Shown piece after piece: positions 5,023 to 32,912 of a DNA stretch of 64,000 bases. The DNA lies in contig QAZA01000025.1 of the NCBI GenBank assembly GCA_003054695.1, positions 124,001-188,000 on the forward strand, given 5' to 3'. The notes under the pieces were generated by a model. That model did no database searches. It was not told the DNA's origin and was given only the letters and a program-made list of their open reading frames with translations. Source of the stretch: Verrucomicrobia bacterium LW23 (lineage in GTDB: Bacteria > Verrucomicrobiota > Verrucomicrobiia > Methylacidiphilales > UBA1321). The first letter of the stretch is position 1. The number at the start of each line of letters is the position of its first letter. The translations under genes and the position numbers were made by a program.

Positions 5023-5025
5023 GCC

Positions 5026-5051: not shown

Positions 5052-5083
5052 ATGACGGTGTAACTCCGAACAGGAGATAAACG

Positions 5084-9861: not shown

Positions 9862-9905
9862 CGCGTCGCCCTTTCTGAAGGACACTACGCGACCTCTTCA
9901 CCGCT

Positions 9906-10100: not shown

Positions 10101-10189
10101 TCCAGCTTCCGGCCGGCTGGTGCAAGCTGCCGGCCGAGAGCGGAATCCAGGCATCCAGTCCGGCCCCAGGCCAGCGCCCATTCGCGCCT

Positions 10190-11038
10190 ATGTCCAGCTC
10201 CGTCGCCCCCCGCATGGTCAATCTCGGCTGCGGCGGGCGATTTCACCCGGCGTGGGAGAACTATGACCTGACGCCTGCGAGCCCTGATGTCCGTCCGCTG
10301 GACCTCAGCGGCCCCTTGCCGTTTGAGGATGCGTCTGTCGACGTCATCTACGCCTCGCACGTTGTGGAGCACCTGGACCGCTCCGCCGTCCCCGCCCTGC
10401 TCAGCGATATCCGCCGCGTTCTGCGCCCCGAGGGCATCCTGCGCCTTGTCGTTCCCGACCTCGAGGGCATCGTGCGTGGCTACCTGCGTTGCCTGGACAA
10501 AGCACGACGCAAACCCCGCCAGCTAGCCCTGGCAGAGCACGAGTGGATGACCCTGGAACTGCTGGATCAGATCATCCGCAGCCGTGGCGGCGGCTACATG
10601 GGCCGCCTCTGGCAATCCACTCCATTCCTGGCCAAACCATTGGTGGCCAGGCGTTTCGGCCGTGAGTTCACGGACTGGGACGCCGCATTCGGCCCCCGCG
10701 ACGGCCAGGGACCCATCGCCAGGCACGAGGTCTATCAGATACCGCCCGCAAGTAACGAAGAGCGGGTCGCGTTTCTCGCCACAGGCGAAAATCACCGCTG
10801 GATGTACGACGAAATTTCCCTGGGCGCACTTATGCGCCAGGCCGGCTTCGCATCGCCCCGCGCTGTGCGGGCCAACCAGTCGCAAATCCCCCACTTCGCT
10901 GGCTATCAGCTGGATACCGACGAGCACGGCGCCGTTCGCAAGCCGGACTCCCTCTTTATGGAGGCGGGCGGCAAGGCGCAGCACTCCACCCGAGTCGGCA
11001 AACTCCTCCAGCGCCTCCGCCGCCTGCTGCCCTTCTAG
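10190..11038 (+). CDS. Class I SAM-dependent methyltransferase
   Basis: A 282-residue protein. The SAM-binding motif I is NLGCGGRFHPAWENYDL near residues 10-26. Motif II lies around PFEDASVDVIYASHVVEHL, and the typical post-motif RRVLRPEGILRLVVPDLEGI follows. This places it among type 11 methyltransferases often linked to surface polysaccharide biosynthesis. The C-terminal part (about 150-282) is charged and ends in a basic QRLRRLL tail. I chose ATG 10190 because the frame upstream overlaps the lipoprotein gene and lacks family character. Its stop overlaps by four bases the stop of bcsB on the other strand, so the genes are convergent. The substrate is unknown; cell-surface glycan modification is a guess from location. 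Confidence 0.85.
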   Translation: MSSSVAPRMVNLGCGGRFHPAWENYDLTPASPDVRPLDLSGPLPFEDASVDVIYASHVVEHLDRSAVPALLSDIRRVLRPEGILRLVVPDLEGIVRGYLRCLDKARRKPRQLALAEHEWMTLELLDQIIRSRGGGYMGRLWQSTPFLAKPLVARRFGREFTDWDAAFGPRDGQGPIARHEVYQIPPASNEERVAFLATGENHRWMYDEISLGALMRQAGFASPRAVRANQSQIPHFAGYQLDTDEHGAVRKPDSLFMEAGGKAQHSTRVGKLLQRLRRLLPF

Positions 11039-13341
11039 TGCTTGGCGGCGCTGGGCTTACTGTGATGCTTGGAGCGGAACATCGCCAGAGCGCGGCGCGT
11101 CAGCCAGGCAAACAGCAGCACGGCAACAAACACTGCGCCAATCCACAACACCGGGTGCTGGGAGAACTGGTACTGCACCGCGGTGCCGGGGTTGGAGCTG
11201 CCCAGATAGTACGTATCGCCAAAGGTTTGCGTCGCAATGCTGCGCAGCGGCTCTCCCCACACCATCGTGTCGCCGTAAATCGACGTCCACCACTCGTCCT
11301 TTACCAGGCTGGCCACGCGCGCCTGCAAAATCTCGCCGCTGCCGGCGGTGCACAGCGTTACCGTCTTGCCCGAGGCGTTGGGCGACTGAAACTGCAGCAG
11401 CACACCCCAGTCCGCCGTGGGATTCGTGCCCGAAACGGTGGCGAGCTTCTTGGATGGCGCGGCCGGCGGCTCGGTCGTGTCCAGGCCAAGGCTGCGAAGG
11501 AAGCCGAGGAAGCCCTGGGAGATTGTGGCGGTGCCCTCGGGCATCGTGTTAAACACCTCGGCAAACTTGCCGGCGGAGTCGAACTTGACGTGCGCCGCGC
11601 TGCGCAGCTGCTCGGGGATGTTGGAGTTAAGGCCCACCACAATCAGCTCGCGCTCCGGCGGCGGCGGGCGGAAGGAGACGAGCGCCTCGGTCATCGGCGC
11701 GCCGGCAACGCGGCTCAGTTTGGCCATCAGCATCCATGCAGCCGCGATGGAGCCGCTATCGGTGCTGGCCACGTGCACGCCGCACGAGCTGCCCGTGGTG
11801 CTCTCCAGGTAGGGAAAACCGGTGCGCGCCGTCAGCCGCATGTCCGGCATTTTAACATATCTGGTGGCGGCCGGTACATCCATAATCGAGTCATCAAACA
11901 ACGTAAAGAGCAGATTTTCGGTCTGTATAATCTCACACTGGTCCGATACGAGAGGAACCATTTGAGGAACGAACTCCACAATATTTTCGCCCTTATCAAA
12001 GGAGCGCAGAGGTACATTAAGTGCGTAATCGCGATAGACAGATCCGGAGTCTGTATTCAGATAAATGACATTCTCAAAGCGTCCGTTGAGAAAGATGTTG
12101 AACACAGAATCCGGCCGCAAACGTGCACCATGCGCAAAGTGAAGGCGAAAGCGAAGATTCACATGCTCGGCCACATAGAAATCGGCCGGCATATTCACCA
12201 CAAAGCGGAAGCCGCCCGTATTCATCCCCTGCAGCGTGCCGCTGCGGAAGCCAAACTGCGAGAAGCGGTAAGATGTCGACGGCTGCGCCATCAACGGATT
12301 CTCCCGGGGAGCGATGGGAGGCAGCGCAACGTCGCTGACATCCATCGTCGGGCTGGCCGGCAGGGGGAACGACATGGCCGAGAACGCGCGGACGGCCTTG
12401 CTTACGCCTTCTACATTGCTGCCGGAGATAACCAGGATAAAGTAGCGAGGGTCCTTGGGGTTGGGATAAATACCAATAAAGCTGTTGCTGATATTGTTGG
12501 CAATATCCGGAACATAGCTTGCAATTTCGTCGCGTGTGCCTATGACAACCTGATCGCTATTCGTAATAATAGAGGAGCCGTGCGTAAACTCGTAAGGGCG
12601 ATACTTAAGGTAAAGCGCAGCTCTCTGTGTAACAAGGGCGCCCCAGTTCAAATGCTGATCCTGCATTCCACTGGGCGACGTGGTAACCACGTGCAATTTG
12701 TAGGGAAGCCACAGCTTGTCATCGATAAGATCGGCCAGCTCGGAAAGGCGGGGCTTCAGAGGCTTGAGCTCGTACTTTAGCGTAATGGTGGAGGAGATGG
12801 GGTCGACCTGGGTCCATAGCTCTGGCGCGGAGGGATTCTCGCACTTTAATGTATAGTGCTGCGCAACATTAATGCTGAGGTCGTGGTAACCAGGTTTGGT
12901 GTAATCTTTAATGTCCAGCGGTGCAATCAGGCGACCGGTGGGATTTGTCCCCATAAGGGGCAGTTGACCAAGTACCTTTTCGTCCCACGTCAGATAGATC
13001 AGCGAGCGCTCGCCAAGGAGGGAAACAGAGTTGACATAATTCAGCACCACCTGGCCGCCCGTTACATTCATACGGGCACTTATAGGTACAGAGAAACCGT
13101 ACTTGGCTTCATCATGCTTAAGCCATACCTGCCCGCTTTTACCCATAAAGGAGGCCAGCGTGCGCGTGTTGGGATCCAGGATGACCGGGGGCGGGGCTGC
13201 GGGGAGCGGGGTGGCGCTGCCCGCCGGGGAGGTGGGAGAAGCCGGGGCCGGGGTGGCGGGAGCGGGCTGCGTTGTCGTCTGCGCCAAGGCAAGGCTGGAG
13301 AGGTTTACGCAGAGTAATGCAGTTAGCAGGAGGAGGCGCAT
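11035..13341 (-). CDS. bcsB: Cellulose synthase periplasmic subunit BcsB
   Basis: A 768-residue protein with a signal peptide (MRLLLLTALLCVNLSSLALA), a Pro/Ala-rich linker, the long periplasmic BcsB region, and a C-terminal membrane helix (about 735-757) followed by a short basic tail. Family-like blocks include FSVPISARMNVTGGQVVLNY, PTGRLIAPLDIKDYTKPGYH and MPADFYVAEHVNLRFRLHF. BcsB binds and guides the nascent glucan and forms the inner-membrane complex with BcsA. Upstream in-frame residues to 13524 lie inside the end of bcsA, so the ATG at 13341 with its signal peptide is the start. It is separated from bcsA by 34 bp and is the second gene of that transcript. Alternatives are other BcsA/BcsB-type beta-glucan synthases; the polymer is not proven. 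Confidence 0.9.
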   Translation of the reverse strand: MRLLLLTALLCVNLSSLALAQTTTQPAPATPAPASPTSPAGSATPLPAAPPPVILDPNTRTLASFMGKSGQVWLKHDEAKYGFSVPISARMNVTGGQVVLNYVNSVSLLGERSLIYLTWDEKVLGQLPLMGTNPTGRLIAPLDIKDYTKPGYHDLSINVAQHYTLKCENPSAPELWTQVDPISSTITLKYELKPLKPRLSELADLIDDKLWLPYKLHVVTTSPSGMQDQHLNWGALVTQRAALYLKYRPYEFTHGSSIITNSDQVVIGTRDEIASYVPDIANNISNSFIGIYPNPKDPRYFILVISGSNVEGVSKAVRAFSAMSFPLPASPTMDVSDVALPPIAPRENPLMAQPSTSYRFSQFGFRSGTLQGMNTGGFRFVVNMPADFYVAEHVNLRFRLHFAHGARLRPDSVFNIFLNGRFENVIYLNTDSGSVYRDYALNVPLRSFDKGENIVEFVPQMVPLVSDQCEIIQTENLLFTLFDDSIMDVPAATRYVKMPDMRLTARTGFPYLESTTGSSCGVHVASTDSGSIAAAWMLMAKLSRVAGAPMTEALVSFRPPPPERELIVVGLNSNIPEQLRSAAHVKFDSAGKFAEVFNTMPEGTATISQGFLGFLRSLGLDTTEPPAAPSKKLATVSGTNPTADWGVLLQFQSPNASGKTVTLCTAGSGEILQARVASLVKDEWWTSIYGDTMVWGEPLRSIATQTFGDTYYLGSSNPGTAVQYQFSQHPVLWIGAVFVAVLLFAWLTRRALAMFRSKHHSKPSAAKH

Positions 13342-13375
13342 AATGTAAGGGAAGGAGATAATAGAGTGTCTCAGG

Positions 13376-15640
13376 CTAGTTCCATGCAAAGATGCCGCCG
13401 AACCAGCGCATCCACGAAAGTATATAATTTTTGATGCTTTGCAGAATCCACTTGATGAACAACATGGTGGCGTAGGACCAGTGTGCATAGGAGTGCCGCA
13501 TGCCTTGCAAAATAATGAAGCCAAGGCTTCCCATAATGCCGCGCTTTGTCATACGCACTTCCTGAAAGCGGACCCAGCGTTCGCTGTCGCCGTAAATCAG
13601 AAGCACGGCGGCTTTGCGTTCAGCATCTGTCTGGTAATCAAACTGTACAACGAGATGGGGGACGCCGTTGACGATACGCTTCTTCAATATCTTCATACCG
13701 AAGGAGAGCGGGATGCCGTCCGTCTGGCTGGATTGCACATTAAGGATGACACCCTGGCCGAGCTTAAGTTTGCGATACATCTGCAGGCTTAGGAGTACAC
13801 GGATGCCGCCCATGGCAACCTCGTCTACCTTGATATTTTCGATCATTCCGGCGCCTTCCAGAGTTCCTGTCAGGTTTTCGGGAATGCGGGGCCATGCACG
13901 TCGTTGCCTTCGTTCAAACATAACGCCGATGGCGGCGAAAATCATGACGAGATTGAGGGTGCACCAGGCCATCGTAATAACGATAACCGAGCGGTCCATC
14001 GGGTAGTGGAAGTATTTATAAAAGCCGACGAGCAGGCCGATGATGGTGGCAAAGAGTAATGTATAGAAGGGCGTGCCGAGCGGCGAGATAAAGTCTTTAT
14101 CCAGCTGCTCGCCCTTGGGCGTTACAATAAAGGTAGGAGCGCGGGGTTTTAGCAATACCTGAATGATGGACGGCATGGTGTATGGCGCCTGGATAAGTTC
14201 GTAGAGCTCTGAAATGAAGCTCCATCGTACTTTGCCATACAAAAAGTCGGAGATGAACATAGCCGCCAGCATGTGCGGGATGGCGTATGCAAAGAACTCC
14301 ATCACCGTGGCGTTATACACCTTAAGGCCGAAGATGAGGAAGCCCAGCGGGGCGATCATGTAGACGAGGCGGCCGTAAGCAAAGAACCAGAAGAAGCAGC
14401 AATTGAGGTAGCACAATCGCTGGCCAAGGTTTAGACCTTTGAGCAGCATCGGGTTCTTGAGCAGGAAGATCTGCACCATGCCCATGGCCCAGCGGCTGCG
14501 CTGCACCATAAAGCCGCCGAGCGTTTCCGGAGAGAGCCCGGCCACCATGGGGCGGCGGATGAAGGCGCTTGTGTAGCCTTTGGAGTGCAGAAGCAATGCT
14601 GTTTCCGCGTCTTCCGTAATGGTTTCACCGCTAATGCCGCCCACTTCGTTTAAGTAGGTACGGCGGAGTACTGCGGCGGAGCCACAAAAGAAGGCTGCGT
14701 TCCAGAAGTCCAGGCCGCGTTGAATAACGCTGTAGAACATCTCGCTTTCGTTCGGCATAACCTTGAACGTATCGAGGTTTTTCTCGATAGGATCGGGGTT
14801 AAGGAAGAAGTGCGGTGTTTGTACAAGGAAGAGTTTGGGATCCTCCAGAAAGAGGCCGACGGTGCGGCGAAGAATGTCGCGCGTAGGTACGTGATCAACG
14901 TCAAGAATCAGAACAAGCTCGCCACTTGTTTTGTTGAAGGCGTTATTGACGTTACCGGCCTTTGCGTGAAGGTTTTTGGCGCGTGTGCAGTAGTTGGCGC
15001 CAATGCGGTCGCACATTTCCTGCAGTTCTTTTCTTCGTGCCTGGGCGGCAGCTGCTTTGGCGGGAACGGCGTCGTTACATTTCTGGTCCGTACCGCCGTC
15101 GTCGCACAGGTTAACGGTGTAGCGGGATTTAGGATAATCGAGCTGAACAGTGGCGTAGAGCGTTAGCTCAATGATGGAAGGATCTTCATTGTAGGTGGGA
15201 ATGAAGATATCTACCGTTGGCCATGTTTCGGGATCTTCGGGAAGCTCGGGTGATGCTCGGTCAAGTGGGTGGATATTGACGAAGAGACCGAGCAGGTAAA
15301 TGATAATGCCATAGATCTCGGCAAGATAGAGCATGATCGCCAGCGTAAAGCTGAGCGGATCGAAGTAGACGAGGGTGTTGAAGGTGCGCCAGAAGAAGTA
15401 GCGCAGGGAGAGGTATGCGGCGAGAAAGAGAAAGATCTCGCGCATGGCGCCCGCGAGATTGAAGCGGCGCGCGACGATGAGCAGCGTGAGGATGAGCGAG
15501 GCCGTGATGAGCTGCGCGTAGGTATCGGTGGGGATCAGCGCCAGCCAGAGCATGAACGCAGCGGCGACGAACCATGCCCAGTAAATGACTTTGTCATTTG
15601 ACCGGGCCCACCATGCCTGTGCTTCACGGAAGTAACTCAT
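13376..15640 (-). CDS. bcsA: Cellulose synthase catalytic subunit BcsA with PilZ domain
   Basis: A 754-residue membrane glycosyltransferase (GT2) polymerising UDP-glucose into beta-1,4-glucan. Visible motifs are DDG at 180-182, DVDH at 247-250, FFCGS at 317-321 in the channel region, TED at 342-344 (catalytic base) and QRSRW at 380-384. About four membrane helices precede and four follow the catalytic domain, and a further one lies at 722-745. The PilZ domain near 577-690 keeps the RxxxR arm (R577, R581). The second c-di-GMP motif, normally [D/N]xSxxG, reads D606-E-V608-A-M-G611, with Val in place of Ser. bcsB follows at 34 bp; bcsZ and bcsC lie divergently. Length is slightly under the Gram-negative BcsA norm. 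Regulation by c-di-GMP is expected but may be altered. Confidence 0.93.
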   Translation of the reverse strand: MSYFREAQAWWARSNDKVIYWAWFVAAAFMLWLALIPTDTYAQLITASLILTLLIVARRFNLAGAMREIFLFLAAYLSLRYFFWRTFNTLVYFDPLSFTLAIMLYLAEIYGIIIYLLGLFVNIHPLDRASPELPEDPETWPTVDIFIPTYNEDPSIIELTLYATVQLDYPKSRYTVNLCDDGGTDQKCNDAVPAKAAAAQARRKELQEMCDRIGANYCTRAKNLHAKAGNVNNAFNKTSGELVLILDVDHVPTRDILRRTVGLFLEDPKLFLVQTPHFFLNPDPIEKNLDTFKVMPNESEMFYSVIQRGLDFWNAAFFCGSAAVLRRTYLNEVGGISGETITEDAETALLLHSKGYTSAFIRRPMVAGLSPETLGGFMVQRSRWAMGMVQIFLLKNPMLLKGLNLGQRLCYLNCCFFWFFAYGRLVYMIAPLGFLIFGLKVYNATVMEFFAYAIPHMLAAMFISDFLYGKVRWSFISELYELIQAPYTMPSIIQVLLKPRAPTFIVTPKGEQLDKDFISPLGTPFYTLLFATIIGLLVGFYKYFHYPMDRSVIVITMAWCTLNLVMIFAAIGVMFERRQRRAWPRIPENLTGTLEGAGMIENIKVDEVAMGGIRVLLSLQMYRKLKLGQGVILNVQSSQTDGIPLSFGMKILKKRIVNGVPHLVVQFDYQTDAERKAAVLLIYGDSERWVRFQEVRMTKRGIMGSLGFIILQGMRHSYAHWSYATMLFIKWILQSIKNYILSWMRWFGGIFAWN

Positions 15641-16146
15641 GAGGTTGAGGGGCGCCTATGATTAGCAGAGGTTATGGGGTGCGGGTCAAGTGGATTCCCG
15701 CCCTAATTCGTATGCGGCGAAGGGGTTATGGAGCGGGTGCAGCGCGGGTGAGGCGATGCCCCCCGGCCTTCGATGTTCTTGTGCGATCAATTGATGAGTT
15801 TAATTGGATGTCGGGAATTGTCGATAGTTAAGATGATATACGGCAGATGGGTGGTGCGTAATTAATGGTATTGCAATATAAGGTACGCAAAAGACTGTCG
15901 GTTTAAGCGGTAAGCATGGCAACTTCGGTAAAATACTCTGGGTGCTTTTGATAGGGAGTCGTACTTTGTTGGCAAAACTTGAGGGTCGGAGAAAATGAAC
16001 CGTTTGAGAGGGGGCGACGGGTGTGACGGAAAGGCGAGAATACTTTTGTGCAATACTTGTTATACACGTGTCATAACATCAAGATGATAAAAGCTTTACT
16101 CATTTTCTTTACTTTTTACGCGTGAAATCTTAAAAACTTCGGCGCC
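15641..16146. other. Divergent intergenic region of the cellulose locus
   Basis: These 506 bp separate bcsA and bcsZ, which are transcribed away from each other. The region is clearly more AT-rich than its flanks, especially at 15780-15900 and 16030-16140, and must hold both promoters. I see no reading frame and no c-di-GMP riboswitch that I can defend. Confidence 0.6.
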
Positions 16147-17310
16147 ATGGATTCTGTCCTCACCACAACCCCTTCACCTCACGCGGTTTATCCGTCGGCG
16201 CGGCGTCCGTTGGGGCGCGTAGCGTGGCGGTTGCCGCTGATGATGTGCATCCTGGGTTTGCCCGCCTGGATTTTTGGCGGCTGCTCGCCCTCCGCATCGC
16301 GGGAGGCGACGGCGACGGACGCGGACTGGGTGGCCTACAAGTCCCGCTACCTGATGGCGGAGGGGCGCATTACGGACACCTCCAACGGCAACGTAAGCCA
16401 CACGGAGGGACAGGGTTACGGCATGCTTCTTGCCGTGCATTACAGGGATCGCCCCGCGTTTGATGCGATGTGGACCTGGACGAAGGCGAAGCTGACTCGC
16501 CCCGACGGACTGTTGAGCTGGCGCTGGCGGCCGGATGCCTCCGGCAACGGTGGCGCGGTGGATGACCCCAACAATGCCAGCGATGGCGAAATTCTTATCA
16601 CCTGGGCGCTGGTGCGCGCGGGCAAAGCGTGGGGCGAAGCCACGTATACCGCAGAGGGCCAGGGACTTGCGCGGCTTGTTGTGGAGAAGCTTGTGGTGAA
16701 GTCGCCGGCCGGCGATTTGCTGTTGCCGGGCATTGTGGGTTTCCGCAAGCCGGAGAACGGCGGGCGCACCATCGTTAATTTGTCCTACTGGATCTTCCCC
16801 GCGCTGGAGGAGCTGCGCGAGGCGACGGGCGTGGAGACGTGGAACGCGCTTGGCGCCACCGGACGTCGCCTCATCAGCCTGGCCCGGTACGGCCGGTGGA
16901 AGCTGGCTCCGGACTGGCTGTCTGTGGATGACGCGACGGGTGCGGTTTCGATGCCGCCGGCTACGGAGTTTCCGCAGGAATTTGGCTACAACGCGTTTCG
17001 CATTCCGCTGTATGTGGCGTGGGCGGCGGGGCAGGCGGGCGACCGGGAGTTGCTGCGACCTTTTGTGCAATTCTGGTCGGAGCAACAGATCGAGGGGCGC
17101 CCCGCCGCAACGGTACGTCTGGATACGGACGAGGTTGCGGAGTACGCGGGCCCGCCCGGCGAGGAGGCGATTTATCTGCTGGTGCGCGCGGTGGAGGCGG
17201 GCAAATCGCCGCGTTCCATCCGCTGGCCGGCGTTGGTGGAGGGGGACAGTTATTATTCTGCAACGCTGCTGCTGTTGACGAAGGCGGCCGCATCGGACCT
17301 TGAGAAATGA
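16147..17310 (+). CDS. bcsZ: Endo-beta-1,4-glucanase BcsZ, GH8 family
   Basis: A 387-residue glycoside hydrolase family 8 protein. The proton donor is E87 within SHTEGQGYGMLLAV, the family's strongest signature, and the second catalytic acid is D146 in NASDGEILITWAL. The usual length is about 350-370. The N-terminus carries a membrane/signal segment (about 24-46) ending GGCSPS, so C46 may be a lipidation site, although the lipobox is imperfect. BcsZ trims nascent cellulose in the periplasm and is needed for proper export. It is the first gene of the plus-strand half of the locus and overlaps bcsC by ATGA (17307-17310), implying translational coupling. Confidence 0.92.
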   Translation: MDSVLTTTPSPHAVYPSARRPLGRVAWRLPLMMCILGLPAWIFGGCSPSASREATATDADWVAYKSRYLMAEGRITDTSNGNVSHTEGQGYGMLLAVHYRDRPAFDAMWTWTKAKLTRPDGLLSWRWRPDASGNGGAVDDPNNASDGEILITWALVRAGKAWGEATYTAEGQGLARLVVEKLVVKSPAGDLLLPGIVGFRKPENGGRTIVNLSYWIFPALEELREATGVETWNALGATGRRLISLARYGRWKLAPDWLSVDDATGAVSMPPATEFPQEFGYNAFRIPLYVAWAAGQAGDRELLRPFVQFWSEQQIEGRPAATVRLDTDEVAEYAGPPGEEAIYLLVRAVEAGKSPRSIRWPALVEGDSYYSATLLLLTKAAASDLEK

Positions 17311-20300
17311 GTCGTAACATCATTATCCACAACAACGTACGTCGTCTCAACCCGGCTTTGGCGCGCAAGGGCGCGGGGCAGGGGAGCGCTTTCCCTTTGT
17401 GCATGCGCGCCCTGGGTGCCGCGCTGGCTGTCGCCGCGCTTGCCGCGCCGTGCCCCGCGATGGGGCAGGATATGTATGTGCAGCAGGTGCAGGACGATGA
17501 GATCCCGACGATGCCGACGCGCGCCCCGGCTCGGCCCGTCGCGGCGCCTGCCACCAACACCACGTCCTCTCCCAATCGGCCGCTTTCGCCGCAGGAGGCG
17601 TATGAGGAGACGTGGTGGAAGCAGCTGACCGGCCCGGACAACGTGGCGGCGCGCAAGCAGCTGGAGGACTCGCGCGATATCTCCATGACGACGCGTTATG
17701 CGTGGTATCTGTATGAGGGCAAGCAGTATGCGGACTCCCGCGTGTGGTTTGAGCGCATTCTGGCGTGGGATACGAGCAACGCCGTGGCCGCGCGCGGCCT
17801 GGTGCTCAGTTATGTAGGCATGAACGACATCGCCAAAGCCAAGGCGATGGCCGAGAAGTATCGCGACCTGGACGCGCTGCTCATCCGCCTCATCCCCGTC
17901 TCCGCCGAGGAGCAACTGGCCATTTTGATGAAGCCCGACGGCGAGGCGGCCCGGCAAATGCTGGAGGCCGAGAAAAACGCCGGCATGGCCCTCAAGCTGG
18001 CCTGGGCCATTTACGATGACAAGCGCCCCGCCGAGGCGCTGCCGTGGTTTGAGAAAGTGTTGCTGTGGGACGACCAGTCGTCCGTCGCCGCCAAGGGCGT
18101 GGTAACGTGCCTGGTGGCGCTGGATCGCCTGGACGACGCGGAGGCGGCCGCGCGCAAGTATGCCAATCTGGATGCCCAGCTCATCAAGCTGGTGCCGCCC
18201 GCCTACAAAGGCAAAGTCAAGCAGATGAAGCAGGACACCGCCGAAGGCGCCGCCGCGCGGAAGGCTGTGGATGACAACAAGGACGCCGAGCTGGCCACCC
18301 AACTGGGCTGGAGCCTGTACGACGACGAGCGCGCGAAGGATGCCTTGCCGTGGTTCGAGAAGGCGATGGAGTGGGATCCCAAAAACGCGACGGCTGCCAA
18401 AGGCCTGATCGTAACGCTGGTAAAGCTGAATCTTATTGCCCGCGCCGAGGCCGCAGCCGTCAAGTACCTGCCGCTGGATCCCACGATGGCCAATCTGGTG
18501 CCATCCGCACGCAAGGCCAAGATTGACAAGATGATGGCGCCGGGCGGCGAGGACCTGATCCAGCAGATGATTGAGGCCAAGGACCTGGGCCTGGCGCTTC
18601 AGCTGGCATGGGCGTTTTACGATGCCAAGCGGTACACCGACTCGATCCAGTGGTTTACGCGGGTGCTGGAGTGGGAGCCGACCAACTCCCTGGCGGCGCG
18701 CGGCCTGGTGCTGAGCAACATGAAGGCCGGCGACATCCCCGCCGCGGAGACGGCGGCCCGGCAATATGAGTCGCTGGACCCGACGCTGATCAAGCTGCTG
18801 CCCAGCACCAAAACGCGGCAGATACAGGCCATGCGCAAGCCCGGCGGTCGCCAGGCGGCCATTGATGTCGAAAAGAGCAAGGATGTGAGCACGGCCGTGC
18901 CGCTGGCGTGGAGCCTGTACGACGACAAGCACTACGAGGAATCCCTGGTGTGGTTTGAGCGCGCGCAACAGTGGGACCACCAGAATGACAGCGCCGGCAA
19001 GGGCGCCGGCATGGCGCGGCAAAAGATCTCCAACGACTGGGTAGGCCAGGCCGCCATGGCGCAGCAGCAAAAGCGCTACCGCGACAGCCTTGCGCTGCTG
19101 GATAAGGCGCAAAGCTACAACAAGTTAGACACGGACGGCCTCACCATTAAGGCATGGAATCTCTTTCACCTGGGCCGGTACGAGGAAGCGGCGCCTCTTT
19201 TCGAGAAGCTGTACCGGCAGAATCCCCGCAGCGATCTGGCCGAGGGCCTCTACTACTCGCTCAAAAACACGGGCGATTACAACAAGATGGCCGGCCTTTC
19301 GCGAGAGCTGGGCGGGCCCTACGCGCGCATCTACCGCACGGAGACGGCCAAGGAATACGTCGATCGCGGCCTGCCGATTGCCGGCCATGCGCTGGACCCG
19401 AACATCCCGGGGCTGAAGAATGTCGACACCAAGAACATCACCGGCGGCATCGGCATGCGCGAGAAGTCGGGCGACCCCGGCACCAGCAAGCTCAGCGTCG
19501 TCACCTTCCCTGTCGCACAGTACAACCTTGTGCTGCCGGGGCTGCACGACGTGATGTTTGAGGCAAAAATCATGAGCCTGGATGCGGATCGCTTTCGCGA
19601 AAACAGCGCGCTTATCGGCTCCGCGCCCATCAACCCGCTGCCCGGCCAGTTCGAGAGCCCCGAGACGCAGTACACCGTGCTGGAGCCCCGCATCAGCTGG
19701 CGCAAGGAGGGCTGGACAACCTACTACGCCGACGCCGGCCTTACCCCGCTGGGCGGCGAAGTGATGCCCGGCATGACCTGGCACCTGGGCATGATCCAGC
19801 AGATCCCCGACGGCTACTGGAACGCCGAATTCTTCTCCGAGAGCGTCAAGGAGTCGCTGCTAAGCTACACAGGCATGACGGACCCGTACACCGGCGACGG
19901 CTGGGGCCGCGTCATCCGCATCGGTCTTCGCGGCGAGCGCTACACCGAGTTTGGCGGCTGCTGGGGCCTGTACATGAACGCCCAGGCCGACTACCTGACC
20001 GGTGTGGACGTGGACGACAACACCCACGCCAGCGCCACACTCGGCCTCTCCCGCAAGTTCGATATCGAGGGCTTCAAATACTTCTCCGTCGGGCCCAGCG
20101 TGGCGGGCGAGGTGTTTCAGCAGAACCTGAGCCACTACACCGTGGGCCACGGCGGCTACTTCTCGCCGGATCACATCCTGCAAGGCGTTCTGGCCCTCAA
20201 CTTCCTTACGGACGAAGGCAAGCGCTTCCTGCTCAAGGGCTACTTTGCCGGCGGCATGCAAACCAACAAACAGTCGGAGGCCGACGTGCTGCCGCTCACC

Positions 20301-20522
20301 CCCGACGGCCGCATGTACCCCGGCACCACCAGCACCAGCATGGTCTTCACCGGCCGCCTCAAAGGCGCCATGCTCATCAACGAGCACTGGCAAGTCGGCG
20401 GCCTGCTCAGCTACGCCAAAAGCGCCAGCTACGACGAACTCAACGCCTTCATGTTCCTCCGCTACACCTTCGAGCCCCGCACCGGCCTCTTCCGGAGGGA
20501 TCTGCCGGCGGATAATCCGTAG
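17307..20522 (+). CDS. bcsC: BcsC-like TPR and outer-membrane beta-barrel cellulose exporter
   Basis: A 1071-residue protein with a signal peptide ending around residue 53. A periplasmic superhelix follows (about 90-640), built of repeated blocks with LAWAIYDDKRPAEALPWFEK-like helices at about 100-residue spacing. The C-terminal barrel (about 710-1071) starts GGIGMREKSGDPGTSKLSVV and ends in a strand FLRYTFEPRTGLF. This matches the BcsC architecture, in which the TPR part contacts the polymer and the barrel exports it. It is close to the family's usual length. It starts on the ATGA overlap with bcsZ. The spaced repeat blocks are unusually regular and near-identical (five to six copies), pointing to recent internal duplication. 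Confidence 0.88.
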   Translation: MSRNIIIHNNVRRLNPALARKGAGQGSAFPLCMRALGAALAVAALAAPCPAMGQDMYVQQVQDDEIPTMPTRAPARPVAAPATNTTSSPNRPLSPQEAYEETWWKQLTGPDNVAARKQLEDSRDISMTTRYAWYLYEGKQYADSRVWFERILAWDTSNAVAARGLVLSYVGMNDIAKAKAMAEKYRDLDALLIRLIPVSAEEQLAILMKPDGEAARQMLEAEKNAGMALKLAWAIYDDKRPAEALPWFEKVLLWDDQSSVAAKGVVTCLVALDRLDDAEAAARKYANLDAQLIKLVPPAYKGKVKQMKQDTAEGAAARKAVDDNKDAELATQLGWSLYDDERAKDALPWFEKAMEWDPKNATAAKGLIVTLVKLNLIARAEAAAVKYLPLDPTMANLVPSARKAKIDKMMAPGGEDLIQQMIEAKDLGLALQLAWAFYDAKRYTDSIQWFTRVLEWEPTNSLAARGLVLSNMKAGDIPAAETAARQYESLDPTLIKLLPSTKTRQIQAMRKPGGRQAAIDVEKSKDVSTAVPLAWSLYDDKHYEESLVWFERAQQWDHQNDSAGKGAGMARQKISNDWVGQAAMAQQQKRYRDSLALLDKAQSYNKLDTDGLTIKAWNLFHLGRYEEAAPLFEKLYRQNPRSDLAEGLYYSLKNTGDYNKMAGLSRELGGPYARIYRTETAKEYVDRGLPIAGHALDPNIPGLKNVDTKNITGGIGMREKSGDPGTSKLSVVTFPVAQYNLVLPGLHDVMFEAKIMSLDADRFRENSALIGSAPINPLPGQFESPETQYTVLEPRISWRKEGWTTYYADAGLTPLGGEVMPGMTWHLGMIQQIPDGYWNAEFFSESVKESLLSYTGMTDPYTGDGWGRVIRIGLRGERYTEFGGCWGLYMNAQADYLTGVDVDDNTHASATLGLSRKFDIEGFKYFSVGPSVAGEVFQQNLSHYTVGHGGYFSPDHILQGVLALNFLTDEGKRFLLKGYFAGGMQTNKQSEADVLPLTPDGRMYPGTTSTSMVFTGRLKGAMLINEHWQVGGLLSYAKSASYDELNAFMFLRYTFEPRTGLFRRDLPADNP

Positions 20523-20733: not shown

Positions 20734-21186
20734 ATGTCCCAATCGCTTTCGAATGTACTGATTCATGCAATATTCAGCACAAAAGAAAGGGCGCCCTGGC
20801 TTGTGTCAGAGATACGGGACGATCTGTGGCATTATCTTACCGCAATTCTCAATAATATCGATTGCCCATCCATCAAACTCGGCGGAATTGATGACCACGT
20901 CCACGTACTCTTCTCGCTTTCCAGAACGATGACGGTTGCGGATGTTATCAAGACACTCAAAGCGAACTCTTCAAAATGGATAAAGACAAAGAAATCAGAA
21001 CTTAAGAATTTTCAATGGCAGCAGGGGTACGCTGCGTTCTCTGTAAGTCCTTCTTCCCTTCCGCAAGTCATTACCTATATCCATAATCAGGAGAAGCACC
21101 ACAAGATGAGAACGTTTATGGAAGAATATATTTCCTTCCTGGATAAGCACGGAATCAAGTACGACCCCAAATACGTCTGGGATTGA
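20734..21186 (+). CDS. IS200-like Y1 (REP-associated, RAYT-type) transposase
   Basis: A 150-residue protein of the Y1 HUH transposase fold (PF01797-like). It starts MSQSLSNVLIHAIFSTKER, contains the metal-binding HUH motif in DDHVHVLFSL, and has the likely nucleophile Tyr in the helix VITYIHNQEKHHK. The ATG at 20734 gives the standard family N-terminus; an ATG at 20704 would add ten residues unlike the family. Base composition is distinctly more AT-rich than neighbouring genes, indicating separate origin. Both flanks carry palindromic repeats in inverted orientation, which is the arrangement of a REP-associated tyrosine transposase. Such enzymes cut single-stranded REP hairpins. No TnpB is present. 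Confidence 0.9.
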   Translation: MSQSLSNVLIHAIFSTKERAPWLVSEIRDDLWHYLTAILNNIDCPSIKLGGIDDHVHVLFSLSRTMTVADVIKTLKANSSKWIKTKKSELKNFQWQQGYAAFSVSPSSLPQVITYIHNQEKHHKMRTFMEEYISFLDKHGIKYDPKYVWD

Positions 21187-21766: not shown

Positions 21767-24097
21767 GTGGGCATGACGAACACGACCTCCTCCACACCGG
21801 TTTCTTCCACCCCTTGTGTTAATGTTGATCCCGCGCCGACGGCGGCGGGGCCGGAGCCTTTGGCGACGATCTCGACGAGTGCGCGCCGGCAGTTGCAGCG
21901 TATGGCGGCTACCACCGTTGGGGTGAGCGAGGCCGACAAGGTGCGCGCCGCCGCGGCATCGGTCCACGCTCAGGCGGCGGCCCGCCGGCCGGCGGCGCCG
22001 ATTGCCGAGGCACGGACGTTTGCGGGGGCCATGCGCATCAGCGTGGTGGCTGTCGTTTGCGACGAAAAGGCGGCTGTGATGGAGATTTATACCCGCACCG
22101 CGCTGGCCTGCTCCACCCGCGACCTGCGGTTTGAGGTGATCTTTGTCGACATGGGCAGCAAGGATGGAACCTGGGACGAGATTACCCGCCTCTCCATTAG
22201 CGACAGCCGCGTGCACGGCTCGCGCACTCGCGGCGAGGTAACGGAGGAGCAGGCTCTGGCCAACGCCCTGCGCATCGCCGGCGGCGACATCGTATTCACT
22301 CTCAATGCCGGCTGCGACGACGCGGCGCAGATCGCCCGCTTTATGGCCACGATGGACGACGGCTATGACTACGTGACGGGCGTTACGCCGGCCGAGGATC
22401 GCGCCCGCTTCGTGCGCACTTTTGCGGAGTGGACCACGCGCCTTACCGGCGTCCATTTCGGCGCGTTCCGCTCCGGCTTCAAGTGCTACAGCGCGCGGAT
22501 GGTGCGCAATATCCACCGCCAGATGCGTTTGAATGGCTACGATTTCCGCTCCGCCAGCCTGGTCCGCTTTCAGGGTTGCCGCGGTGCGGAGATTGTGGTG
22601 CGGCCGCTGCGCGCGCTGCCGGCCGGCACTGGTGTGGCAGGCATCGTCACGCACGCCGCCGCCGAGGCGACGGGCCGCTCGCTGGGCGCCGTGGCCGGGG
22701 CCGGCGATTCGGTCGTCTCCTATCTGGCGACCCACCGCTGGCAGTATATCATCGGCGGCTCCCTGGCGCTGCTGACGTTTGCGCTGTTGATGATGTCCGA
22801 CGTGATTCCCCTGGACATGTACCTGTGGGTCAAGCTGGCGATTGTGGTGGGCGTGGCCAGCCTGGCAGCCTGCTGCTTCTCCGTGGCCGCCCTGCTGCGT
22901 GGTCTCACCGCGCCCGCCCGTGATGTGCGGGAGATGCGCGATATGCCTGATATGAGCTCCGCCGCACCCGCCACAGCCGCCGCGCCGGCCGCACCCGGCG
23001 AGCCCGCGCCGATTGCGGAGGCGATACCGGTTGCCGCTGCCGGCGCCACGCCTGAGGCCCCCGCCACTCCCTCCGTTGCTGCTGCCGTTGCCGAGCCTGC
23101 GCAACTTTCCGTCGCCGGCACGGTACCCACTGTTGCGCTGGGCGTCCCCGCTATAGTGGCGACAGCCGCCGCGCCGGTGCCGGTCGCACCCGTCGTTCCC
23201 GCCGGGGCAACCCGGGCGCAGCGCATCGGGCTTCCGGCGCCGTCGGCGCAGGCCGTCCGCCCCGCCCGCACCGCCGCGGATCCCGCCGGCCTGCGCAAGT
23301 GGGGTTCCTCCGCGCCCCGCTCGTCGGCTACAGCTTCCGCTTCGTCTTCGGCTGCTTCCGCCACCTCGCCCGCAAAGCTTGTGCGCTCTAACATGACGAC
23401 CGGGCCGCTGCCTGTGCCTGCCCGGCCCAGGTCCAAGTCGGCGACTGTTCCGTCCATGCTGCCCAAGAGCGCTGTGGTTTCTCCCCGCCTGGTGCTCTCC
23501 AAATCGGGTTCGGCCCTTACCGGCAGCTTCACCACGGCGCCGCTCCCGGAGACGACCAGCGTCCCGGCCGGCACGCGCAGGTCGGTGGCCTCGGTGATGA
23601 GCGTTGGCGGCCAAAGTGCAACGCTGGACGGTACCGCCACCGCCACCCCCATCCCGGCCCCGGTTGCCGAGGCCGCGGTTGCCGAAAAGCTGGGCAATGG
23701 CCGCCCTAAGCCCCTGGTGCTGATTGCCGACGACGACGCCGCGATCCGCGATATCCTTCGCATCCACATGGAGATGCACGGCTTCCGCGTGGAGGAGGTG
23801 GGCCGCGGCATGCAGGTGCTGGCCAATCTGCACCACAACCCCGATCTGGTGCTGCTTGACCTGATGATGCCCGGCCTGAAGGGCGAGGAAACGCTGCGCG
23901 AGATCCAGCGCCGCCGCCCCAACATGAAGGTCATCGTCATCTCCGGCCGCATCGATGTGGAGGAGAGCAAATCCGGCCTGGATGCCTTCGAGTTCGTCGC
24001 CAAGCCGGTCGACTTCTGCACGCTGCGCTCCGTGGTAAGCCGGGCGATGGAAAAGGGCGGCGAGGAAGCCGGCGAGCGTGCAGCCCTCTCCGCCTAA
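21767..24097 (+). CDS. Degenerate GT2 glycosyltransferase fused to a response-regulator receiver domain
   Basis: A 776-residue protein. Residues 91-285 follow the DPM1/GtrB-type GT2 fold (FEVIFVDMGSKDGTW; GGDIVFTLNAGCDD; GFKCYSARMV). The metal-binding DxD expected in TLDAD reads NAG at 180-182. Two membrane helices follow (about 326-344 and 354-377), then a 260-residue Ala/Pro/Ser linker. A complete receiver domain occupies 646-776, with the acidic cluster DDD 655-657, phosphoacceptor D698 in LLDLMMPG, S726 and K746 in VAKPVD. GtrB-type enzymes move sugars to a lipid carrier. Here catalysis is doubtful, so a membrane-tethered scaffold or sensor is plausible. GTG 21767 is placed better behind GGAGG than ATG 21773; either could be used. 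Confidence 0.85.
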   Translation: MGMTNTTSSTPVSSTPCVNVDPAPTAAGPEPLATISTSARRQLQRMAATTVGVSEADKVRAAAASVHAQAAARRPAAPIAEARTFAGAMRISVVAVVCDEKAAVMEIYTRTALACSTRDLRFEVIFVDMGSKDGTWDEITRLSISDSRVHGSRTRGEVTEEQALANALRIAGGDIVFTLNAGCDDAAQIARFMATMDDGYDYVTGVTPAEDRARFVRTFAEWTTRLTGVHFGAFRSGFKCYSARMVRNIHRQMRLNGYDFRSASLVRFQGCRGAEIVVRPLRALPAGTGVAGIVTHAAAEATGRSLGAVAGAGDSVVSYLATHRWQYIIGGSLALLTFALLMMSDVIPLDMYLWVKLAIVVGVASLAACCFSVAALLRGLTAPARDVREMRDMPDMSSAAPATAAAPAAPGEPAPIAEAIPVAAAGATPEAPATPSVAAAVAEPAQLSVAGTVPTVALGVPAIVATAAAPVPVAPVVPAGATRAQRIGLPAPSAQAVRPARTAADPAGLRKWGSSAPRSSATASASSSAASATSPAKLVRSNMTTGPLPVPARPRSKSATVPSMLPKSAVVSPRLVLSKSGSALTGSFTTAPLPETTSVPAGTRRSVASVMSVGGQSATLDGTATATPIPAPVAEAAVAEKLGNGRPKPLVLIADDDAAIRDILRIHMEMHGFRVEEVGRGMQVLANLHHNPDLVLLDLMMPGLKGEETLREIQRRRPNMKVIVISGRIDVEESKSGLDAFEFVAKPVDFCTLRSVVSRAMEKGGEEAGERAALSA

Positions 24098-24402: not shown

Positions 24403-24608
24403 GGGCGCGGAGACCTGGGCGATGGGGTCGGTAGGTGGTGCGCCTCAGGGTATTCTCACATGTAGCACAATAGACAGCAGTTGAATGTATTATCTCTTGA
24501 CTATACAGAGACATTAGTATACTTAAGTAAAGGGAGGGCTTTAATACCTGCCGGTTGCCTGCTGGCGGCCGCCCCATTTTGGCAAGTTCTCACCTTTTGC
24601 CCGACATC

Positions 24609-25259
24609 ATGCCCAAGCCGCTTCGAGTTCTGCTGGTAGATGATCATGTGCTTATCCGCGCCGGCATCCGCATGTGCCTGGAGGCAATGGGGACTGTGGA
24701 GGTTGTGGCCGAAGCCAGCGACGGCAGGCAGGCGCTCGATATTGTGCGCAAAGAGCGGCCCGACCTGGTGATGATGGACATTACGATGCCGCTGCTAAAC
24801 GGTGTGGACGCCACGACGCGACTGCGGCAGGAGCATCCCGGCCTTCGTATCATCATCTTCTCCAGCCACTCCGACGAAGTGCACGTGCTCTCCGCCCTGC
24901 GAGCGGGGGCCGGCGGCTACCTCCTCAAAAACGCGCCGGTGGCGGATTTGCAGACAGCGGTGCGCCTGGTGGCGGCCGGCGAGACGTTTCTGAGCCCGGA
25001 GATCTCCCGCCACCTGGTCAGCATCTCCCTGCGCGGCGGCACTCCCCATGCCACTCAGCTGGAGGGACTTACGAGCCGCCAGCGGGAGATATTGCAGCTG
25101 ATTGCGGAGGGCAAAAGCACCAAGGAGATCGCCTTTTTGCTGAACGTCAGCGTCAAGACAATCGAGACGCACCGCACCCAGCTGATGGACCGTCTCGACA
25201 TCCACGACATTGCCGGCCTCGTCAAGTTTGCCATGCGCACCGGGCTGGTGACGGAGTAG
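24609..25259 (+). CDS. NarL/FixJ-type response regulator
   Basis: A 216-residue protein. The receiver domain (1-125) has D11/D12, phosphoacceptor D57 in VMMDITMP, and Lys in GGYLLKNAPV. The LuxR-type HTH (about 150-212) reads LTSRQREILQLIAEGKSTKEIAFLLNVSVKTIETHR in outline, with all helix landmarks present. Length is normal. I chose ATG 24609 (MPKPLRVLLVDDH) because the upstream in-frame codons precede the receiver by a non-family segment. No kinase gene is adjacent; the receiver-bearing glycosyltransferase-like gene upstream is the nearest signalling partner. The gap between them (24403-24608) is AT-rich around 24460-24540 and may hold its promoter. Confidence 0.92.
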   Translation: MPKPLRVLLVDDHVLIRAGIRMCLEAMGTVEVVAEASDGRQALDIVRKERPDLVMMDITMPLLNGVDATTRLRQEHPGLRIIIFSSHSDEVHVLSALRAGAGGYLLKNAPVADLQTAVRLVAAGETFLSPEISRHLVSISLRGGTPHATQLEGLTSRQREILQLIAEGKSTKEIAFLLNVSVKTIETHRTQLMDRLDIHDIAGLVKFAMRTGLVTE

Positions 25260-28047: not shown

Positions 28048-28431
28048 AAATTCCTTTGCCGTAACGGGATGCATCGCAGGCGCCACCGCCTTGCGCAGGG
28101 CCCGGCGTTCCCCTCCTGCCGTTACCTGATGTTGCCTCGTTCCCCCCTGCAAACCAAGCCAAATTGCGCGCATTCCATATTGTGCATGGAATAAAACGCG
28201 CCGTCGTCCCTCACATCCCTACACAGCAGTTCAGGCGGCCCGCCTCCACGGTGTGCTCCGCTTGACTTTGAGACCGGCCCTGCTTCATTATAGAAGGGCA
28301 TTGTTTGCCGGAACCGCCCTGCAGGCAGCGTGCGTAACACGTTGCGTAGCAGCTACAAGAGCTAAAGGCGGTTTTCCAGTGCGGCGTCCCTTTTGTTTGC
28401 GCAGGGCTGGTCTCCCCACAATCCACGTTAC
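28048..28431. other. Divergent intergenic region
   Basis: These 384 bp separate the membrane-protein gene (minus) from the msrB-msrA gene (plus) and must carry both promoters. No reading frame, repeat or strong hairpin is evident. Confidence 0.4.
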
Positions 28432-29628
28432 ATGCATATGCCTATGCCCGCATTTCTTGCCAATCTCTTCAAGTCGTCGGAGTCCACCAGCCCGATGTAC
28501 CTTGTCGCAAGCGTTGCCGCCTGCGTCGCCGTTTTCCTTATTGTCAGCCGCATTCACGCTCAGCCCGAGGCCACTACTATGCACGCATCAACCACAAAAA
28601 CAGCCACTTCCAGCGATACCGTAACTGTCCGCCTGCTCGACTCTGAAGGCCGGCTCACCGCGGCCGAAGAGGTGAAGAAGGTGGTGAAATCCGACGAGGA
28701 GTGGCGCAAGCAACTGACGGAGGAGCAGTATAAAATCACCCGCGGCAAAGGCACCGAGCGCGCGTTTTGCGGCGTGTTTTACGATAACCACAAAGAGGGC
28801 CTCTACAGCTGCGTCGGCTGCGAGTTGCCGCTCTTTTACTCCAACGCCAAGTTTGACAGCGGCACCGGCTGGCCCAGCTTTTTCCAGCCCGTCGCCAAGG
28901 AAAACATTGCCGAGGAGGCCGACAACAGCTACGGCATGCGCCGCGTGGAGATCCTCTGCAAACGCTGCGATGCCCACCTGGGCCACGTCTTCGACGACGG
29001 CCCCCGCCCCACCGGCCTGCGCTACTGCCTCAACTCCGGCGCGCTTAAGTTTACCGAGATGAAACTGGGCGCCACGCCCTCCGACAAGCCCGCCTCGGCC
29101 GCGCCCGACAAGGAAAAAGCCAGGACGAGCGGCAAGCGCGAGAAGGCCGTCTTTGCGGCCGGCTGCTTCTGGGGCGTCGAGGCGACCTTCCGCGAGCAGA
29201 AAGGCGTGACCGGCACGCGCGTCGGTTACTCCGGCGGTGTGACGAAGAACCCCACCTACCGCGACGTATGCAGCCACAACACCAAACATGCGGAAGTGGT
29301 TGAGGTGACGTATGATCCAGAGGTTATCAGCTACGCGCAACTCCTCAAGGTCTTTTACGAAAACCACGACCCCACCACCAAAGACCGCCAGGGCCCCGAC
29401 TACGGCGACCAGTACCGCAGCGCTATCTACTTCCTCAGCCCCGAGCAGGAGAAAGAGGCCAAGGAGTACACCGCCAAACTCACCGCCGCCAAAGTCTTCC
29501 GCGCCCCCATCGTCACGGAAATCACCAAAGCCTCCGAGTTTTGGGAAGCCGAAGAGTACCACCAGCAATACCTGGAGAAAAACGGCCGCGCCAAATGCCA
29601 CAGCGGCCTGAACGTGACGCTGCCGTAA
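28432..29628 (+). CDS. Membrane-anchored MsrB-MsrA methionine sulfoxide reductase fusion
   Basis: A 398-residue protein. A membrane segment (about 22-40) would place the enzyme outside the cytoplasmic membrane. MsrB (about 85-215) has zinc-binding CxxC pairs C127/C130 and C176/C179, a GTGWPSFF block and the catalytic Cys199 in RYCLNSGALKF. MsrA (about 238-398) has catalytic Cys245 in AAGCFWGVEATF and the typical GYSGG, HAEVVEV and YHQQYL motifs. It reduces R- and S-methionine sulfoxide in oxidised proteins. The MsrB-first order is the reverse of the MsrA-MsrB order best known from Neisseria PilB. ATG 28432 is used; nearby ATGs at 28438 and 28444 would also work. A terminator follows. Confidence 0.92.
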   Translation: MHMPMPAFLANLFKSSESTSPMYLVASVAACVAVFLIVSRIHAQPEATTMHASTTKTATSSDTVTVRLLDSEGRLTAAEEVKKVVKSDEEWRKQLTEEQYKITRGKGTERAFCGVFYDNHKEGLYSCVGCELPLFYSNAKFDSGTGWPSFFQPVAKENIAEEADNSYGMRRVEILCKRCDAHLGHVFDDGPRPTGLRYCLNSGALKFTEMKLGATPSDKPASAAPDKEKARTSGKREKAVFAAGCFWGVEATFREQKGVTGTRVGYSGGVTKNPTYRDVCSHNTKHAEVVEVTYDPEVISYAQLLKVFYENHDPTTKDRQGPDYGDQYRSAIYFLSPEQEKEAKEYTAKLTAAKVFRAPIVTEITKASEFWEAEEYHQQYLEKNGRAKCHSGLNVTLP

Positions 29629-31760: not shown

Positions 31761-32771
31761 TTACACATCCCCGCCAAGAAAGATCTCCGACCAGCGCTGT
31801 ACGTCCAGCGGTTCCCCAACACACTGAATATGGCAGCAGCGGCGGCGATCGGAGCCGTAAAGCTCCAGGCACACGCCGTGTTCCTGGCGGTTGATCTTTT
31901 GCCACAGGCCAAGGCCCGGGGCGCGAAGGATATGCGCTTCACTGTCGCGATCCATAAGGTGGATGCTGTCGCCACAACGCTCCATGCGCTGCGGCGTCAT
32001 GTCGATCTGATGAAACAGGCCCTGGTTAAACAGGGAGATACGAAGGGGAATCTGCTCGCGCGAGGCAAGAAAAAGGCTTTGCACCAGCGCCTCGTACCGC
32101 GCCGGCCGGGCGTAGGCCGCGCCGATAAGCTCCATGGCCTCGTGCCGCACCATATCCTCCCAGCCTGCCATGTAATCGCCCTGCACGGTGGGATGCTGGT
32201 GGCGCCAGCCGGCGCGCAGCCAGTCCAGCCCGGCGGAATCATGGGCCAGGGCACCGGGCGCGGGCAGGGGAGGCTGCGCATCAAACCGGGGGGGTGAGCC
32301 GCCGCGGGCGTAGTGCTGAATAAAGTGGGTAAACCACTCGTGCTCAGCACCATCGGCCAAAATCACTTTAAACAGTCCTTCACCGTGCCTGTCAAAAAAC
32401 TGCAGTGCCAGCATGCGATCCTTTTGCAGCCTCTCGTCGGCGGCAACCACAAAGTGCAGGTTTGCCAGGTTGACGGTAAAGCCGCTGGTCAGCTCCACCA
32501 TTTCGGCGGGGTCCTCAAAGTCGCCCACGCCGGTGGAGAAAAACTCCGTGCGAGCCACGCGGGAGGCCACCACCACCTGCTCCGTGCGGCTTAGCAGCAG
32601 GACGGGGCCCAGGACAGAGGTATCGGCCAGCAACTGAGGCCAGCTCTCCAGAAGGCGCAGGCAAATGTCCCCCTTCTCCGTGCAAAACAGCAGGTCCTCA
32701 TGCACCGTCGTCATCGGGCTGGAGGTGGGCGGGGACGGCTGCCAGCTGAAGGCATCGGGCACAAAGGACAT
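31761..32771 (-). CDS. HemS/HmuS-like heme-handling protein
   Basis: A 336-residue protein with two repeats of the ChuX/HutX/HemS fold and the normal HemS length (about 345). The first repeat contains LQFFDRHGEGLFKVIL, matching the family's LQFFDAHGxAVHKVY motif. The second contains ISLFNQGLFHQIDM, GDSIHLMDRDSEAHI and VCLELYGSDRRRCCHIQC. HemS-type proteins bind or degrade heme in the cytoplasm. The His that in HemS follows NPGCIQI is not at the same spot here (NQGLFHQID), so heme ligation may differ. ATG 32771 (MSFVPDAFSW) is chosen; the upstream frame is non-family. It is the last of three same-strand genes with a flavodoxin in the middle. Confidence 0.78.
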   Translation of the reverse strand: MSFVPDAFSWQPSPPTSSPMTTVHEDLLFCTEKGDICLRLLESWPQLLADTSVLGPVLLLSRTEQVVVASRVARTEFFSTGVGDFEDPAEMVELTSGFTVNLANLHFVVAADERLQKDRMLALQFFDRHGEGLFKVILADGAEHEWFTHFIQHYARGGSPPRFDAQPPLPAPGALAHDSAGLDWLRAGWRHQHPTVQGDYMAGWEDMVRHEAMELIGAAYARPARYEALVQSLFLASREQIPLRISLFNQGLFHQIDMTPQRMERCGDSIHLMDRDSEAHILRAPGLGLWQKINRQEHGVCLELYGSDRRRCCHIQCVGEPLDVQRWSEIFLGGDV

Positions 32772-32892
32772 AGCGCAGGGGGCTGTGAGAAAGGGGGAAA
32801 GGAGGCCCGGAGACAGGCGGGCCCGGCGGCATCGCAACGTAACATGCTGCGATGCCGAATGTTGCGTTACATTACTGTAACATTGCGCGGCG

Positions 32893-32912
32893 GTGCGGTG
32901 CATGCACCGCAC
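32893..32912. terminator. 20-bp perfect palindrome between flavodoxin and HemS-like genes
   Basis: GTGCGGTGCATGCACCGCAC is a perfect palindrome in the 154-bp gap after the flavodoxin stop. It lacks a T-run, so it may be an mRNA-stabilising hairpin or operator as well as a terminator. Confidence 0.45.

Follow-up and report, generated by a model that had tools for sequence, protein, structure and literature searches.

The window analyzed here, a stretch of 64,000 nucleotides from Verrucomicrobia bacterium LW23, contains a gene that joins a glycosyltransferase-like domain, two membrane helices, and a response regulator receiver domain in a single protein. Cellulose genes and a transposase gene precede it, and a gene for a second response regulator follows. 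The features of the locus are the following.

11035..20522, no single strand: cellulose genes bcsB, bcsA (minus), bcsZ (GH8), bcsC (plus), as neighbors only (Pfam PF03170, GT2 families, PF01270, PF05420)
20740..21186, plus strand: Y1 (IS200-like) transposase gene, located after bcsC and before the fusion gene (PF01797, E = 2.8e-25)
21767..24097, plus strand: fusion gene, 776 aa, encoding a putatively inactive GT2 domain, two transmembrane helices, a linker, and a receiver (open frame, Pfam, AlphaFold2 model, codon-position GC)
22031..22636, plus strand: GT-A domain of the GtrB/ArnC type, residues 89 to 290 (Pfam PF00535; Foldseek to 9hwj, 9bhc, and 5ekp)
22304..22312, plus strand: position of the DxD motif, which reads N-A-G (residues 180 to 182; both Asp residues invariant in 53 relatives)
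22748..22804, plus strand: transmembrane helix 1, residues 328 to 346 (hydropathy; helix in the model)
22841..22897, plus strand: transmembrane helix 2, residues 359 to 377 (hydropathy; helix in the model)
22925..23701, plus strand: disordered linker rich in Ala, Pro, and Ser, residues 387 to 645, 259 residues (composition; pLDDT mostly below 50)
23711..24052, plus strand: receiver domain, residues 649 to 762 (PF00072, E = 8.1e-21; Foldseek, CheY-like)
23858..23860, plus strand: predicted phospho-acceptor D698 (receiver alignment)
24555..25259, plus strand: NarL/FixJ-type response regulator gene, the downstream neighbor (Pfam)

The start codon of the fusion gene is ambiguous (GTG at 21767 or ATG at 21773). 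Pfam places two matches in the 776-aa open reading frame, Glycos_transf_2 at residues 114 to 222 (E = 1.5e-9) and Response_reg at residues 651 to 757 (E = 8.1e-21), and the AlphaFold2 model consists of a GT-A domain, a two-helix hairpin, the linker, and a confident receiver. Within the GT-A domain, pLDDT is about 85 to 96 across residues 91 to 200 and lower beyond. Foldseek matched the first half of the protein to ArnC/GtrB structures (9hwj, 1.3e-14; 9bhc, 1.6e-14; 5ekp, 3.7e-14) and the second half to CheY-like receivers. The original prediction for this gene, read from the letters of the DNA, had described a GT2/GtrB-type domain with two membrane helices, on which Pfam, hydropathy, AlphaFold2, and Foldseek now agree, and a disordered linker of about 260 residues, which is borne out by the 259 residues of low pLDDT. 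It had also described an intact receiver pocket; the sequence and the receiver alignment bear this out for the acidic cluster DDD655-657, D698, S726, and K746. The receiver carries a two-residue deletion ahead of its last strand.

The GC content of codon position 3 is high throughout the open reading frame (0.68 to 0.90), and relatives of the glycosyltransferase match it mainly in frame 1. A frameshift or sequencing error as the source of the NAG reading is rejected on these grounds. A search of genome contigs returned ordinary GT2 genes only. In the window's own genome, an ordinary GT2 match lies elsewhere (G000:C10:212284), and no second copy of the fusion gene was found.

The fusion gene lies outside any cluster of GT4, PMT_2, and Hpt genes of the kind described below for its relatives, and its context is that of the bcs genes and the NarL-type regulator. 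Hpt matches in the genome number 16, while H-NOX was not found there, and the GT4 protein of the relatives' clusters had no match at E 1e-20 in a search run without a positive control. A PAS-rich kinase gene at 50288-52282 is 26 kb from the fusion gene, with no link seen between the two. The window's BcsA (13376-15640, minus strand) has no Pfam PilZ match and, by eye, has an RxxxR motif (RAWPR) and a second motif reading DEVAMGG, which makes c-di-GMP control of this cellulose synthase doubtful.

Other open reading frames of the window were recorded in passing. These include a neighboring pair of genes with HemS/ChuX-like domains (31761-32912 and 33509-34753, minus strand), a methionine sulfoxide reductase fusion with SelR and PMSR domains (28393-29628, plus strand), an open frame of 2932 aa (40529-49327, plus strand), and an adjacent pair of similar-looking proteins that are probably coiled coils and have no Pfam match (8272-9033 and 9106-9861, plus strand).

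Loss of the glycosyltransferase active site

Conservation in the glycosyltransferase half was scored over the 68 alignment columns that are at least 85% conserved in 53 relatives from the class and the phylum. The window protein keeps 30 of these positions and has lost 38, whereas a fusion from genome G190 keeps 48 and every other relative keeps at least 59. Both Asp residues of the DxD motif are invariant in 53 of 53 relatives, and the window protein has N and G in their place, which confirms the original reading of NAG at residues 180 to 182. The Gln that follows DADL in the relatives is missing through a one-residue deletion. Further along, Met replaces the second Asp of DDGS (DMGS), the HDxNCGFK of the relatives has become GAxRSGFK with loss of its Asp, and SKYG has become ATHR.

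Work on GtrB provides a functional frame for these changes: its DxD motif holds a divalent cation, mutations in the donor and acceptor sites abolish activity, and R122, R125, and R200 are required (PMC4728340). The equivalent of R125 is Glu in the window protein, as read by eye from a HMMER alignment and the alignment of relatives, and the equivalent of R200 may be retained.

The two halves of the protein also differ in their rates of change. In the glycosyltransferase tree, the end branch of the window protein has a length of about 10, and all others are at most 1.6; in the receiver tree, its branch is ordinary (1.36 versus a median of 0.95). The long glycosyltransferase branch, the ordinary receiver branch, and the complete receiver pocket together suggest that one half has been relaxed while the other has remained constrained. 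The motif losses, taken with the long branch and the open frame, point to an active site lost within a still-readable gene, and we infer that the glycosyltransferase half is catalytically inactive. Although the window protein retains the GT-A fold and the C-terminal transmembrane hairpin of the polyprenyl-phosphate GT2 enzymes, it lacks their DxD, DDGS, HDxNCGFK, and SKYG motifs, and because these defining active-site features are absent, we do not class it as such an enzyme.

Fused relatives and their gene clusters

The domain order of the window protein, GT2-2TM-REC, is that of a fusion family found in the same class. Searches of 384 class genomes, first with the window's glycosyltransferase domain as the query and then with an alignment of fusions, found them only in G190, G191, G194, G307, and G335 besides the window. 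The 195 genomes of family f11 contributed further fusions (G649, G656, G682, and G725), and the 213 genomes of the order of G190 contributed those of family f67 (G782, G795, and G797). The 12 other fusions thus comprise eight from f11, three from f67, and one from f44; the genome samples searched, mostly subsets of larger groups, all fall within the window's own phylum. The window's own order (62 genomes) contains no other fusion, and no ortholog of the window fusion was found among 40 relatives, in that order, or in the class sample. A plasmid search returned unfused GT2 or receiver proteins only, among the matches listed.

Either half of the architecture can be the degenerate one. In all eight f11 fusions, the DADLQDDP motif is intact and the receiver pocket complete. 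DADLQDDP is also kept in the three f67 fusions, whose receivers are degenerate: the acidic motif reads ERD in L115 (G782) and L117 (G795), and the phospho-accepting Asp is Asn in L116 (G797). These three proteins mirror the window, with the glycosyltransferase motif kept and receiver pocket residues lost. The G190 fusion, from f44, has DADLRDDP and a complete receiver pocket, but its glycosyltransferase is missing about 17 residues and the transmembrane helices. As judged from the f11, f67, and G190 sequences, the architecture is rare yet recurrent, with decay of one half or the other according to lineage.

These comparisons bear on several expectations attached to the original prediction. The homolog search it called for found the same domain order in 12 relatives, many of them in clusters with GT4, PMT_2, Hpt, kinase, or H-NOX genes. 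The possibility it raised that relatives lack the fusion, with the region split by a sequencing error, does not hold, given those 12 relatives and a frame that stays open. It had further proposed that its inference should be dropped if homologs had an intact DxD and this protein was an isolated mutant. The first part is what was found, since DxD is intact in every one of the 11 fused relatives whose glycosyltransferase is full length, as well as in the truncated G190 protein. The second part does not hold: the window protein has lost 38 of the 68 conserved positions next to an intact receiver and cannot be called an isolated mutant.

Whether all of these fusions share one origin was addressed with trees, that of the glycosyltransferase being built on a set cleaned of spurious antisense open reading frames. 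There, all 13 fusions fall on one side of a branch with support of 61/91, and the row nearest the window is the G190 fusion. The G190 fusion is also nearest in the receiver tree, which requires two label changes for the fusions. Approximately unbiased tests rejected neither a clade of the 12 others without the window (P = 0.555) nor placement of the window among unfused glycosyltransferases outside f11 (P = 0.559). A single origin of the window fusion with the others is plausible on these sequences, and long-branch effects on the placement of the window are possible.

In 10 of the 11 f11 and f67 loci, the fusion gene is immediately followed by a GT4 gene; the exception is L124 (G797), where an HlyD-like protein is encoded next and the contig then ends. 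Several of these loci have genes for LPG_synthase_TM, OEP outer-membrane, HlyD-like, and PMT_2 GT-C proteins after or near the fusion. PMT_2 GT-C proteins belong to a type of enzyme whose substrates are polyprenyl-phosphate sugars. The G190 fusion adjoins a PEPCK gene and lies outside a GT4/PMT_2 cluster, and no bcs genes were seen among the annotated neighbors of the fused relatives.

Signaling genes are a further feature of the f11 loci. Five of the eight encode an Hpt protein (G307, G335, G649, G656, and G725), and the four Hpt sequences inspected contain the phospho-His motif HQLKGS(S/A)G. An H-NOX gene sits beside a gene for a two-receiver hybrid kinase in two loci (G307 and G725), and the G656 locus encodes a PAS-HisKA-HATPase kinase. 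L067 (G307, 3063-17324) contains genes for H-NOX, the hybrid kinase, Hpt, GT2-REC, GT4, LPG_synthase_TM, OEP, HlyD-like, and PMT_2 proteins, and L120 (G725, 716-11751) contains the same series through the HlyD-like protein; both clusters are candidates for gas-sensing control of a glycan pathway. In L068 (G335, 10109-11467, minus strand), a gene for a sigma-54-type, NtrC-like regulator adjoins the GT2-REC and Hpt genes, in the place that a kinase takes in other f11 loci.

Comparison with known systems

Metabolic enzymes with a fused receiver form an established class, and the fusion of a receiver with a glycosyltransferase is itself already known from archaea. In Methanobacteriaceae, REC is fused to a BcsA-like glycosyltransferase domain (PF13641), for example, in MTH_548 (PMC5847659). 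Compared by domain content rather than order, the window protein resembles these fusions in joining receiver and GT2-type domains and in its narrow phyletic spread. It differs from them in being bacterial, in having a PF00535 domain of the GtrB/ArnC type with a transmembrane hairpin, and in the apparent death of that domain. A bacterial fusion of a GtrB-type GT2 domain with REC was not found described in the open-access literature, and the combination of a GtrB/ArnC-type GT2 domain, a transmembrane hairpin, and a receiver, with relay-bearing clusters and opposite decay of the halves, appears to be undescribed in those texts.

Like GtrB, ArnC, and dolichyl-phosphate mannose synthase, the window protein has a GT-A domain followed by two transmembrane helices, and a cytosolic C terminus is expected. 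Unlike them, it is devoid of DxD, the candidate catalytic Asp, and SKYG, and it has gained a long linker and a receiver. The window protein shares its domain order, glycosyltransferase family, and membrane hairpin with the f11 and f67 fusions, but these have an intact glycosyltransferase, a linker some tens of residues long rather than 259, and a GT4/PMT_2 cluster. Moreover, many f11 loci include Hpt and kinase genes, and the f67 receivers are degenerate.

A precedent for the signaling side is the HnoX-HnoK-HnoB pathway: there, H-NOX governs a kinase whose phosphorylation target is the receiver of a c-di-GMP phosphodiesterase (PMC8846402). In f11, the G307 and G725 clusters likewise combine H-NOX, a histidine kinase, and a receiver-bearing enzyme, although their output is a glycosyltransferase rather than a c-di-GMP phosphodiesterase and the window genome yielded no H-NOX. 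By analogy with this pathway, the f11 fusions may be polyprenyl-phosphate glycosyltransferases switched by a phosphorelay. The usual role of the family is therefore probably phosphorelay control of a working enzyme rather than that of a binding protein.

Proposed role of the window protein

Sequence comparison and structure modeling establish the architecture, the loss of the glycosyltransferase site, the complete receiver pocket, the recurrence of the fusion, and the cluster context of the relatives. On balance, we consider it probable that the window protein is a response regulator anchored in the membrane, with a decayed polyprenyl-phosphate glycosyltransferase of the GtrB/ArnC type, now a pseudoenzyme, as its output module. 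The GT2-2TM-REC family would most likely have begun as makers of polyprenyl-phosphate sugars under direct phosphorelay control. In the lineage of the window, the enzyme half would have lost the residues of its metal, donor, and acceptor sites, with the receiver and the membrane hairpin being kept. Phosphorylation of D698 by a kinase would then alter binding at the inner membrane, through contacts of either the receiver or the decayed glycosyltransferase half with a membrane partner; we infer both the phosphorylation and the regulation through binding from the sequence. The transmembrane helices of GtrB hold it together as a tetramer (PMC4728340), and other GtrB-like subunits would accordingly be among the likeliest targets, with mixed oligomers of the window protein and an active transferase as a natural possibility; an envelope glycan machine is the other candidate. 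Neither a partner kinase nor a target was identified for the window protein, and it counts against this reading that the 62-genome order holds no close ortholog in which the state of NAG could be compared. The original prediction of a phosphorylation-controlled binding protein built from a dead glycosyltransferase is thus upheld as to the inactive site, the complete receiver, and the membrane tether, and it departs from the probable usual role of the relatives as working enzymes.

A single lineage-specific copy could also be a decaying gene, and we regard as unlikely, but worth weighing, the reading that the fusion is a functionless leftover or acquisition with a degenerating glycosyltransferase half. 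The end branch of about 10 and the 38 lost positions fit such decay, as do the lack of the fusion in all 61 remaining genomes of the order, the adjoining transposase gene, and the G190 fusion, which is likewise truncated and outside a cluster. Against it stand a frame intact across 776 codons with high third-position GC, the complete receiver pocket, and a GT-A fold that is still predicted with pLDDT of about 85 to 96 over residues 91 to 200.

The neighboring cellulose genes invite a more specific proposal, namely, that the pseudoenzyme, once its receiver is phosphorylated, binds to the inner-membrane BcsA/BcsB and thereby tunes cellulose output. In its favor are bcsBA, bcsZ, and bcsC directly upstream and a BcsA whose missing PilZ match and DEVAMGG motif leave another input conceivable, but it seems to us quite improbable. 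The Y1 transposase gene separates bcsC from the fusion gene, the fused relatives are linked to GT4/PMT_2 clusters with no bcs genes among their annotated neighbors, and the adjacency occurs in one genome only. The original suggestion of a cellulose link comes down to gene adjacency.

It is very doubtful that the receiver merely drains or buffers phosphate from a membrane relay, with the glycosyltransferase half as an anchor. An intact receiver on a long linker, a dead output domain, and the 16 Hpt matches of the genome are what such a sink or shuttle would have, but no relay partner was identified, and a folded output domain, which this role does not need, seems to have been kept. Least credible is an active transferase with a changed donor site: some glycosyltransferases do work without DxD and the GT-A fold is still predicted, yet the losses extend beyond DxD across donor, acceptor, and catalytic motifs, and both Asp residues are kept in 53 of 53 relatives.

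Returning to the regulatory pseudoenzyme that we prefer, we put forward a wider account for the family, tentatively and as possible rather than probable. The fused receiver, fed by a phosphorelay that is headed by H-NOX in two loci, would switch a polyprenyl-phosphate glycosyltransferase without a change in transcription; the window's glycosyltransferase would have become a pseudoenzyme that retains the switch and controls other envelope transferases by phosphorylation-dependent binding; and f67 would have undergone the mirror change, with the receiver dead and the enzyme kept.

Where two-component systems are known to control surface glycans, they mostly do so through transcription or c-di-GMP. 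If the receiver instead sits on the very enzyme that charges a lipid carrier with sugar, in a family some of whose members have adjacent genes for Hpt proteins, kinases, and gas sensors, a signal would be connected to an envelope glycan in one step. The family is also a natural experiment: the enzyme site has been lost in some lineages and the receiver site in others, which makes it possible to test the contribution of each half.
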